Under the pieces are notes generated by a model. That model did no database searches and was not told where the DNA came from. It saw nothing but the letters and a program-made list of their open reading frames with translations. A DNA stretch of 47,561 bases from an uncultured Prochlorococcus sp. (GTDB lineage: Bacteria > Cyanobacteriota > Cyanobacteriia > PCC-6307 > Cyanobiaceae): contig CACAQP010000002.1 of NCBI GenBank assembly GCA_902534685.1, forward strand, positions 1 through 47,561, read 5' to 3'. Made by a program: the position numbers and the translations under genes. Below, piece by piece: positions 12,517 through 41,290 of the stretch (position 1 is the first letter of the stretch; every line of letters begins with the position of its first letter).

Positions 12517-12572
12517 AAATTAAGATTTAAATAGACCGTGATTTATATTTTGTTGCATACTTATAAACATGT

Positions 12573-12657
12573 GGAGAGGTGGCTGAGTGGTCGAAAGCGA
12601 ACGACTCGAAATCGTTTAATAGGCAACTATTCGTGGGTTCGAATCCCACCCTCTCCG
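12573..12657 (+). tRNA. trnS: tRNA-Ser (anticodon CGA)
   Basis: Acceptor stem GGAGAGG/CCTCTCC with G discriminator, D arm TGGCTGAGTGGTCGAAAGCG, anticodon stem AACGA/TCGTT with loop CTCGAAA giving anticodon CGA (reads UCG), a long class II variable arm (AATAGGCAACTATT) and T arm GTGGG-TTCGAAT-CCCAC. CCA is not encoded. It lies between futA and the convergent TPR gene. Confidence 0.97.
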
Positions 12658-12664
12658 TTAAAGG

Positions 12665-13924
12665 TTATTTGAGGCATATTTTTTCTTTGCCTTCTACTTT
12701 AATATAGTTAGGGCACTCAACATTATAATTAGGGAATATGGGAGGATCTTTTCTTATAGAAAGATCATTTTTTTGATTAGTTAGATCCTTTTTAAAAATA
12801 TTTTGGCAAATAGAATTTTTCTTATTTTTGAAAAAAGTTAAAGTAATTTCGTTACCTAAATTAATCGCCTCCTGAAAATCTTCACAAGCACCTTTCTCAT
12901 TACCAAGGCCTTGGCCTTTCGTAATACCACGATTATGAAAAGCGATAGAATATTTTGGATTTATGCTAAGAGCATTATTGTAGTCTTTTAAAGCGCCTTT
13001 GAAATCTCCAATTTTATTTTTAACTAATCCTCTATCTGTATAAGATGCAAAATCATCTGGTTTTTTCGCAATTGCATTTGTAAAGTCTTCAATTGCTCCT
13101 TCATATTGTCCTAATGAATCCTTTGCTAGTGCACGATTATAAAAAGATTCATTTAGAGGAAGAACATCAATTGCACTATTAAATTCTTTTATAGCTTTTT
13201 CGTAATTTCCTTTTTCAAATTCAATAACTCCTTTTGAAAAATATTCACCTGATTTATTAACTTTATAAATATAGTCAGAGGATTCTGAATAATCTAACTT
13301 AGGTTCATTTTGTAAATTATCTCCTATTGTTGAATCAACAGAGACATTGTTTGGAAGATCTGAATTACTGATATTTAAAGTTGCAATATTTTGACCTTGA
13401 TAAATATTATTGGGAATCGCAGAAATTAATATGCTTGGTATTAAAACTAAATTAAGTAATAAGATTGAATAAAGATAAGATTTTAAATTTCCTAATTCTC
13501 TCTTATTTGATTTTGAGAATAACCATCTTTGGTAAGGAAAGTTTATGGCATAAATGTAATTAAATATTTGACTTATTAGGATTGATAAATTTATATCAAC
13601 TTTGAAAGCATTTGTTAACCCGAGATCGATAAGTGCTGAAATAAAAAATAAGATGCCAGCTATCCAGAAATAACCCCAGTGTTTAATTTTTACAGCACAT
13701 AATGGTCCTATAAAATAAGCAATCCAGGATATGCCAGGTAAAGTGTTACCTTCAATTTTTTTAGATCTAAAGGGACTAAATTGAAATGTATTAACTCTTT
13801 TACCTTTTTTATCGATTAATTGATGATAAAAATCTTTTATAAATGAAGACTTAAGTACGTAACCTTGATCAATTAGGTCTTCAATTTTCTCTAACCTCAA
13901 ATTCATTTTTTTAGATATTGCCAT
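12665..13924 (-). CDS. membrane protein with C-terminal TPR repeats
   Basis: A 419-residue protein with a cytosolic N-terminus, four hydrophobic segments between about residues 65 and 170 (for example WGYFWIAGILFFISALIDLGL), and a long soluble C-terminal part. From about residue 220 it carries three or four tetratricopeptide repeats: FEKGNYEKAIKEFNSAIDVLP, LGQYEGAIEDFTNAIAKKPDD, IGDFKGALKDYNNALSINPKY and a weaker GNEKGACEDFQEAI. TPRs bind other proteins; the partner is unknown. It ends with a Cys-containing tail (ECPNYIKVEGKEKICLK). Its stop lies 8 bases from the 3' end of the convergent tRNA. Confidence 0.8.
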   Translation of the reverse strand: MAISKKMNLRLEKIEDLIDQGYVLKSSFIKDFYHQLIDKKGKRVNTFQFSPFRSKKIEGNTLPGISWIAYFIGPLCAVKIKHWGYFWIAGILFFISALIDLGLTNAFKVDINLSILISQIFNYIYAINFPYQRWLFSKSNKRELGNLKSYLYSILLLNLVLIPSILISAIPNNIYQGQNIATLNISNSDLPNNVSVDSTIGDNLQNEPKLDYSESSDYIYKVNKSGEYFSKGVIEFEKGNYEKAIKEFNSAIDVLPLNESFYNRALAKDSLGQYEGAIEDFTNAIAKKPDDFASYTDRGLVKNKIGDFKGALKDYNNALSINPKYSIAFHNRGITKGQGLGNEKGACEDFQEAINLGNEITLTFFKNKKNSICQNIFKKDLTNQKNDLSIRKDPPIFPNYNVECPNYIKVEGKEKICLK

Positions 13925-13989
13925 TTTCTTAAACTTTTAATTAATATTTTATATTTTGAACTACTAAAGAATATTAATCAATTCTGATC

Positions 13990-14335
13990 AAGAATATTAA
14001 AAAGTTTTAATTAACTGTTCTGGGATGTGTTGTGGGATTATCAACTATGAGTTGGTTTGCCCTTACCTATCTATCCTATAGCGGCACATACGGACTGAAC
14101 TCAACTTCTGACTCTCCGTAAATTTATTGTTTCTGGAGTCCTAAAAATAAATAAGAGGGCATTTATTTGCCCTCTTCGAGTCTTATGCACCTCGCTGTCC
14201 ACAAAGTCGATGAAGTGCTATTGACTCCTGAATTATTTATACTCCTAACGAATGGGAAAAGATAGTCGCTACAACCACAAAGCACTAATACTCGGGTATT
14301 AATACTCTATTCATTTCAGTTGAATAAGAGGATAA
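13990..14335. ncRNA. structured, relatively GC-rich intergenic region, candidate non-coding RNA or leader
   Basis: About 350 bases without a credible ORF, visibly richer in G and C than neighbouring spacers. I see a series of hairpins: CAACT-atg-AGTTG (14042-14054), ACGGA/TCCGT (14090-14119), overlapping GACTC/GAGTC (14110-14140), a perfect 8-bp stem AGAGGGCA/TGCCCTCT (14154-14175), a nested arm GAGTC..GCAC..TCG / CGA..GTGC..GACTC (14178-14227), AATAC-tcgg-GTATT (14287-14300) and CTCTATTCA/TGAATAAGAG (14305-14330). It does not match tmRNA, RNase P RNA, SRP RNA or the glutamine riboswitch core as I know them. It lies directly upstream of the 52-aa CP12-like ORF, so it may be its leader, an independent sRNA, or both. 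Strand is undecided. Confidence 0.5.
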
Positions 14336-14362
14336 TTAAAGAGTAGAGATATAGGAGGTTTT

Positions 14363-14521
14363 ATGAGACTAACCACTCCATTCACTGCCCTTAGAAATGC
14401 AACTTCAGATATTTGGAGAATGCATGATTTTAATTATCAACTACCAAAAGATCAAAGACAAGATTATTGGGAAAAAGAATGCAAAGACCACCCAACAAGT
14501 TCTCATTGCAAAGTTTACTAA
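14363..14521 (+). CDS. 52-aa mini-protein with CP12-like C-terminal cysteine loop
   Basis: A short ORF missed by the ORF track, preceded by a strong Shine-Dalgarno (AGGAGG, 7 bases before the ATG) and followed by a terminator. It starts MRLTTPFTALRNATSDIW and ends YWEKECKDHPTSSHCKVY. The two Cys are separated by eight residues with Pro after CKDH and a basic-hydrophobic-Tyr ending, the same layout as the C-terminal loop of CP12 (C-x3-P-x4-C-R-x-Y), the redox-switched inhibitor of GAPDH and phosphoribulokinase. The N-terminal Cys pair and AWD-VEEL core of CP12 are absent. Binding to GAPDH is inference only. Confidence 0.75.
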   Translation: MRLTTPFTALRNATSDIWRMHDFNYQLPKDQRQDYWEKECKDHPTSSHCKVY

Positions 14522-14545
14522 AGCTAATATAAAATCAAGACTTTA

Positions 14546-14570
14546 AAAAGGCCCTTTTTAGGGTCTTTTC
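14546..14570 (+). terminator. Rho-independent terminator after the CP12-like mini-gene
   Basis: Stem AAAAGGCCC / GGGTCTTTT (one G-T pair) with loop TTTTTA, ending in T residues, 24 bases after the stop of the 52-aa ORF. Its presence supports a discrete short transcript. Confidence 0.8.
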
Positions 14571-17804: not shown

Positions 17805-19187
17805 TTAATCTAGATCAGGCATTTCTAGAGCTGGTTCACTCTTTCTGTCGATTCCTTTCTCGAAACCAGCAGCGGCAGCTCTAGCACGTCCAGCATGCCA
17901 AAGATGACCGATGAATGTAAACCATCCTAGGAAGAATTGAGCAGCAGCTAACCATTGTCTTAAGTTAACGAAGTTAACAGCATTTGGCTCTGTAATGATT
18001 CCACCAACAGAGTTGATAGAAGCGTTAGGAGCATGAGTCATATATTCAGCAGCTCTTCTTACCTGCCAAGGCTGAATATCATTTTGGATTTTCTCGAGAC
18101 TTAATCCGTTAGGACCTCTTAAAGGCTCTAACCATGGACCTCTGAAATCCCAAAATCTCATCGTTTCACCACCAAATATAATTTCACCAGTAGGAGATCT
18201 CATGAGATACTTACCTAGACCTGTTGGTCCCATTGTTGAACCTACGTTAGCTCCAATTCTTTGGTCTCTCACAAGGAAAGTAAAGCTTTGAGCCTGTGAA
18301 GCTTCAGCATTTGTTGGGCCATAGAATTCTGAAGGATAAGCAGTATTGTTAAACCAGATGAATGTTGATGCAATAAAGCTTGCTACACAAATTCCACCTA
18401 AAGCATAACTAAGTAGACCTTCACCGTTCCATATGAATGCTCTTCTTGCCCATCCAAATGGTTTGGTAAAGATATGGAAAAGACCACCAATTATTGCGGT
18501 AATTCCAACATACACGTGACCACCAACTATATCTTCTATTGAGTTAACACCGATTATTGAACCAGCGCCACCCCAAGGAGACCTAAATAGGTAACCAAGT
18601 ATTACTCTTGGATCTAATGTAGGACTGACTAGCCTAACTTCTCCACCACCAGGTGCCCATGTATCATAAGCGCCTCCAATGAACATCCAATCAAAAACGA
18701 AAAATAATGCACCAACTCCTAATACTATTAAGTGATAACCCAAGATATTAGTCATTTGATTCTTATCTCTCCAATCTGTTGAAAAGAAAGGAAAATCTTG
18801 CTCAAGTTTTTCTGGACCTGCTAAGGAATGATAGATACCACCAAATCCTAAGACTGCAGAAGAAATTAAATGCATCACACCAGCCACAAAGAATGGGTAT
18901 ACATCAGTAACTTCTCCACCAGGACCTATTCCAAACCCAAACATTGCAACATGAGGCATACAAATTAAGCCTTGTTCCCACATTGGTTTATCGAATGTGA
19001 AATGACTAACTTCGAATAACATCATTGCACCGGCCCAGAAAACAATAAGGCCAGTGTGTGCAATATGAGCACCAAGTAAACGGCCAGATAAATTAATTAA
19101 TCTGGCATTACCTACATACCAAGCATAACCAGTTTCTTCAATACTCTGGTTAGGGGCTCTAAGTAAACTATTAAAGGGCGTTTCCAC
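17805..19187 (-). CDS. psbC: photosystem II CP43 core antenna protein
   Basis: CP43 binds chlorophyll (divinyl chlorophyll in Prochlorococcus) and beta-carotene, passes excitation to the PSII reaction centre, and supplies a ligand to the manganese cluster. The 460-residue chain shows six helices with conserved His ([37 protein letters not shown]) and the large lumenal loop with [20 protein letters not shown], whose GGETMRFWD includes the Mn/Ca ligand region. The track starts at 19214, but the conserved start is a GTG at 19187 giving [13 protein letters not shown], with GAGGAGG 9 bases ahead inside psbD. It overlaps the end of psbD by 17 bp, the usual cyanobacterial and plastid arrangement. 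Confidence 0.98.
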
Positions 19188-41189: not shown

Positions 41190-41290
41190 ATCAGTTAAGC
41201 TTTGAGAGCTTATTTGAAATTTTCATGTAAGGATTAGGTAATTGAGAGAGTGTTTTTAGCTGGGAGACAATCTCTTTTTTTTTCTCATTA
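41190..41290 (+). ncRNA. possible small RNA or 3' UTR ending at a weak terminator
   Basis: The spacer from 41152 to 41346 holds no ORF. On the plus strand GAGA-caa-TCTC (41264-41274), or alternatively AGAGA (41245) with TCTCT (41271), is followed by nine T residues (41275-41283), a weak Rho-independent terminator. It could end the preceding membrane gene transcript or a separate small RNA; I cannot define a 5' end. Confidence 0.25.

Follow-up and report, generated by a model that had tools for sequence, protein, structure and literature searches.

A structured, multicopy element precedes a small open reading frame in the stretch of DNA that we analyzed (the window, 47,561 nucleotides from an uncultured Prochlorococcus sp.), and we read the pair, with a probability of about 0.5, as a two-gene cassette: a small RNA (sRNA) of ~160–185 nt on the minus strand and, divergent from it on the plus strand, a protein of 48–64 aa that in two of its families, A and C, carries a tail like that of CP12. 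The element keeps a fixed distance from its ORF, its helices are conserved and it has the anatomy of a terminator on the minus strand. Prochlorococcus is the most abundant phototroph in the ocean. Multicopy non-coding elements are seldom retained in its streamlined genomes, yet this one persists in most of them.

The initial annotation had treated positions 13990–14362 as a single GC-rich spacer of 350 bases. The region is in fact composite: a short ORF remnant (14016–14121) that DNA comparison finds again elsewhere in the genus, a repeat of the 3′ junction of tRNA-Ser(CGA) (14109–14138; the tRNA itself lies at 12572–12658), and then the conserved element, confined to ~14142–14362. The excess of GC is present (0.365, vs 0.319 for the whole window) but modest: of 945 windows 350 nt long, 104 have a GC content at least equal to that of 14012–14361. 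Between the tRNA and the cassette lie ~1.5 kb (12659–14118) that hold a TPR-protein gene on the minus strand and the short ORF remnant, with a repeated CTCTCCG at the right end. Since the cassette sits 32–35 nt from tRNA-Ser(CGA) in many relatives, this segment looks like an insertion at the 3′ end of the tRNA.

The structured core spans 14147–14307 on the minus strand, where it matches our models R1 and R2 with E values of 7e-36 and 5e-37. At its 3′ end on that strand is the stem P1, with arms AAGAGGGCA and TGCCCTCTT (14153–14161/14168–14176) and a 6-nt loop (14153–14176 in all); it had been described as a perfect 8-bp stem at 14154–14175, and the stem is there but has 9 bp. Next to it, at 14143–14152, an A-run on the plus strand becomes a U-tract after P1 on the minus strand. 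The nested arm reported at 14178–14227 is also real, with GAGTC/GACTC outside and GCAC/GTGC inside: it consists of P2 (14178–14182/14223–14227) around P3 (14187–14193/14212–14218). A further hairpin, P5 (14280–14307), has 12 bp on the minus strand. The likely sRNA would extend 5′ of the core towards ~14330 and end near 14146. A spacer at 14308–14352, of fixed length in nearly all copies and presumably the divergent promoter region, leads to the plus-strand gene, which begins directly 3′ of the region, as noted earlier: a Shine-Dalgarno sequence AGGAGG (14353–14358), conserved in copies, a 52-aa ORF of family A (14363–14521) and a hairpin with a T-run (14544–14569), probably the mRNA terminator, which we read from the sequence and which a simple scan did not flag.

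That this is a functional RNA had been proposed from its hairpins, and conservation across copies supports the proposal. The fold of 14144–14329 beats dinucleotide shuffles on both strands (z −5.20 minus, −3.65 plus), and over 40 copies the mean z is −3.24 on the minus strand vs −1.78 on the plus strand. Among 36 diverse copies P1, P2 and P3 persist, and two-sided changes in these helices exceed both shuffled and slid controls. Once P5 is included, 88.9% of the 33 pairs of the minus-strand set are kept, vs 40–49% after sliding the columns by one to three. P1, P2/P3 and P5 all retain pairing through compensatory changes, and in distant copies (genus g56 and other genera) P1 differs in sequence yet still pairs. 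Among unpaired stretches, conservation is highest in GACUAUCUUUU and UGUGGUUGU. RNAalifold recovered only P1 from the full mixed alignment because low-light copies misalign, and a tree-aware G-test on pairs was confounded, its top pairs being misaligned 3′ columns.

Copies of the element are common. A DNA search finds the region in 88 of 101 genomes of the same genus, often at several places in a genome, and absent from phages; R1, a covariance model, finds it in 125 of the 148 genomes of the genus that are at least 80% complete, at up to five copies per genome. R1 also matches genus g56 and a few other genera with weaker scores; R2 matches mainly in g1 and g56. The upstream flanks of the copies are unrelated (p-distance about 0.5), and in nearly all of 105 copies the ORF starts 49–60 nt past the end of the model. 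Some arrangements are elaborate. One genome (L057, G077) has a tandem array of three element copies within about 3.5 kb, another (L058, G088) an array with several ORFs of the family, and in genus g56 (L083, L085, L087, L088, L091) two copies on opposite strands converge and overlap next to a small ORF, MTRKRDKIW. MED4 and two related genomes carry one ORF-less copy (L045/L192, MED4 1348242–1348397) adjoining the poly-Lys terminus of a gene that converges on it. We considered whether this copy might be an sRNA in its own right, terminated on the plus strand, and rejected the idea, the T-run being the poly-Lys end of that gene. The copy is probably a relic, since the ORF is present at a locus of another genome (L112) whose upstream flank is similar.

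A DNA repeat that moves or recombines, its copies spreading or being homogenised by gene conversion, would also be multicopy. Its hairpins would then have a role at the DNA level or none. Such a repeat would suit the existence of tandem arrays and relics, the lack of strand preference among changes (see below) and a divergence between elements that is about the same whether the protein families that follow are different (0.19–0.21) or the same (0.17–0.21), near synonymous divergence in either case. Against it stand the compensatory changes, a higher conservation at paired than at unpaired positions (0.87 vs 0.76), a spacing to the ORF that is always the same, and the element itself, where we saw neither terminal repeats nor a transposase or a target duplication. 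We consider a mere repeat unlikely.

Which strand, then, carries the RNA? The terminator scan found one terminator-like site in the region, P1 with its A-run, and it faces the minus strand. The U-tract is conserved, as plus-strand A, across 64 unrelated upstream contexts, with A at 0.72–0.95 at several positions. P5 is paired in 90% of cells on the minus strand vs 65% on the plus strand, mainly because three near-fixed positions form G-U pairs only on the minus strand and are A·C mismatches on the plus strand. Folding, too, is stronger on the minus strand, as the z values above show. Events counted on the tree from Watson–Crick pairs to wobbles allowed only on the plus or only on the minus strand number 71 vs 70, which gives no sign of a strand preference among recent changes. 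A hexamer search found no clear minus-strand promoter common to all families, which counts against a minus-strand sRNA, and −10-like hexamers in the spacer did not discriminate between strands. With four observations for the minus strand and one neutral (the wobble events), an sRNA of ~160–185 nt on the strand opposite the ORF is likely, not proven. Of the earlier suggestion of one or two small RNAs, the small RNA is therefore favored, and its place is opposite the ORF.

The other suggestion had been a riboswitch-like leader, that is, a plus-strand structured 5′ region that acts in cis on the translation or the stability of the small ORF, perhaps alongside an antisense RNA from the other strand. 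Its fixed place before the Shine-Dalgarno sequence of nearly every ORF speaks for such a leader, as do the significant plus-strand fold and the equal wobble events on both strands. It fares less well in the details. Sequestration of the Shine-Dalgarno sequence, which we tried as a mechanism, falls away: its predicted pairing is 0.69, not above the 0.76 obtained with shuffled leaders, and is high because a GC-rich Shine-Dalgarno sequence stands in an AT-rich RNA. Upstream of the block no promoter-like motif is conserved over the 64 different contexts, the hairpin with its U-tract faces the wrong way, P5 has its three A·C mismatches on the plus strand, and in other genera and in MED4 the ORF family is found with no detectable element. 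A riboswitch-like leader is not supported, and a plus-strand leader of any kind is rather unlikely.

The annotation had found no known RNA identity, and a search of Rfam (4227 families) agrees, giving no match at gathering score and nothing credible at E 10. The Rfam Yfr models do not match the element in the window; in MED4, Rfam places Yfr20 at 1336435–1336523, its published position (PMC2518516). Conversely, R1 performs at chance on MED4 Yfr regions: among 14 regions, 13 of them published Yfr loci, only the relic copy scores. Elsewhere in the window Rfam matches IsrR, the antisense RNA of isiA (18590–18773), and Yfr19 (41208–41290). We did not find a description of the element in the literature on PRE1 and tycheposons. 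The cassette thus provides a testable RNA family absent from Rfam; published tables of transcription start sites and sRNAs may already list some of its copies.

CP12 is a peptide that switches off carbon fixation, and the C-terminus of the protein from the plus-strand gene resembles its GAPDH-binding tail. The ORFs that follow the element (48–64 aa) fall into related families: family A (52–54 aa, including that of the window), family B (48–64 aa) and family C (60 aa), with a fourth family in genus g56. A and C, the two commonest, both end in a CP12-like tail, which in the window's family reads ..WEKEC..HP....CKVY. Searched against 177,635 PDB sequences, a profile built from families A and C gave two matches at E < 10, both CP12 (3b1j, 0.27; 3zdf, 0.49). 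When members from other genera were added (found by profile search, with a motif filter in the choice of ORFs that introduces a mild bias), the PDB matches were again only CP12 chains, the best at E 3.4e-4. Comparison of the extended family with CP12 by hhalign gave 93% and E 3.4e-7; a CP12 model scored the window protein at 3.8e-5, where the best among 1100 shuffled proteins reached 3.2e-4; and the family profile recovers the true CP12 gene, weakly (E 0.03–0.05), in seven of the eight genomes searched. Single-sequence searches of Pfam, NCBIfam and PHROGs gave no credible match for the window protein, and in four members CP12 is the sole Pfam match, below cut-off (E 0.02–0.08). Two points count against a CP12-like role for the cassette as a whole: the likeness spans about 20 residues, and the motif is absent or altered in the g56 family and in family B, which has the amino end MKL-TPF of the family but not the tail.

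The protein travels beyond the element. Cyanophage P-TIM68 encodes a full-length homologue of 65% identity (KM359505.1 129293–129448; L255 1501–1656), flanked on one side by a heat-shock protein gene and on the other by a run that leads to DNA polymerase, and we did not find the RNA element beside it. In other picocyanobacterial genera the CP12-like tail occurs on several unrelated amino-terminal parts of small proteins (L231–L250), some with a second Cys pair. CP12-tail microproteins with no Pfam or NCBIfam assignment are present in 18 of the 37 sampled genera of the family. This widespread group, one member of which a phage has taken up, may act as regulators of carbon fixation in the picocyanobacteria of the sea.

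How might the cassette work? Most genomes of the genus hold one to several copies, and in the two-gene reading divergent transcription from 14308–14352 would produce two products. One, most likely from the minus strand, would be an RNA of three hairpins ending at the P1 terminator; the other would be the mRNA of a small brake that, to judge from its tail, may bind GAPDH and restrain carbon fixation. The RNA would act elsewhere, the cassette's own mRNA offering it no pairing partner. One may go further and propose a horizontally shuffled, multicopy cassette in which a trans-acting sRNA is joined to CP12-tail microproteins that can stand in for one another as brakes on GAPDH and carbon fixation, one such protein having also been acquired by a cyanophage; that extension is tentative and, we think, rather improbable.

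Several known systems invite comparison. Type I toxin–antitoxin loci of the tisB/istR type pair a small RNA gene with a small ORF that diverges from it, an arrangement that the cassette shares, and a divergent antitoxin RNA acting against the mRNA of the small protein would also fit a small RNA that adjoins a small ORF in many copies. For two MED4 pairs, Yfr8/Yfr9 and Yfr6/Yfr14, roles of the toxin–antitoxin type have been proposed (PMC2518516). The cassette differs, however, in that complementarity between sRNA and mRNA does not exceed that with shuffled mRNAs (over 70 copies the mean z is −0.52), for which reason we discarded pairing with its own mRNA, and in that a hydrophilic protein ending in a CP12-like tail stands in place of a hydrophobic peptide. 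A toxin–antitoxin role is accordingly very improbable. The element can also be set beside the Prochlorococcus Yfr sRNAs (Yfr8/9, Yfr10, Yfr19 and Yfr20), which are likewise structured, lineage-restricted picocyanobacterial RNAs, some of them adjoining or overlapping small ORFs and variable in location (Steglich 2008, PMC2518516). Yfr103 is also multicopy, with seven paralogues of 290–328 nt in Synechococcus CC9605 and a presence in NATL strains; in a comparison of length and phyletic range it differs in both, being longer and described in Synechococcus and low-light but not high-light Prochlorococcus (PMC5069720).

For the protein the comparison is with CP12 (PF02672), above all CP12-C and the cyanophage CP12-like proteins (PMC3906501). 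CP12 has been described with an N-terminal Cys pair and an AWD_VEE core (PMC3906501); the alignment of families A and C has neither, and so we call the family CP12-tail-like. Its MKL-TPF amino end is distinct, and its best member reaches 15.9 of the 22.7 bits of the Pfam cut-off. What the two share is the C-x8-C tail, a P at C+4, a Y at C+3, an ending in YDD or YCD in many members, and a homologue carried by a cyanophage.
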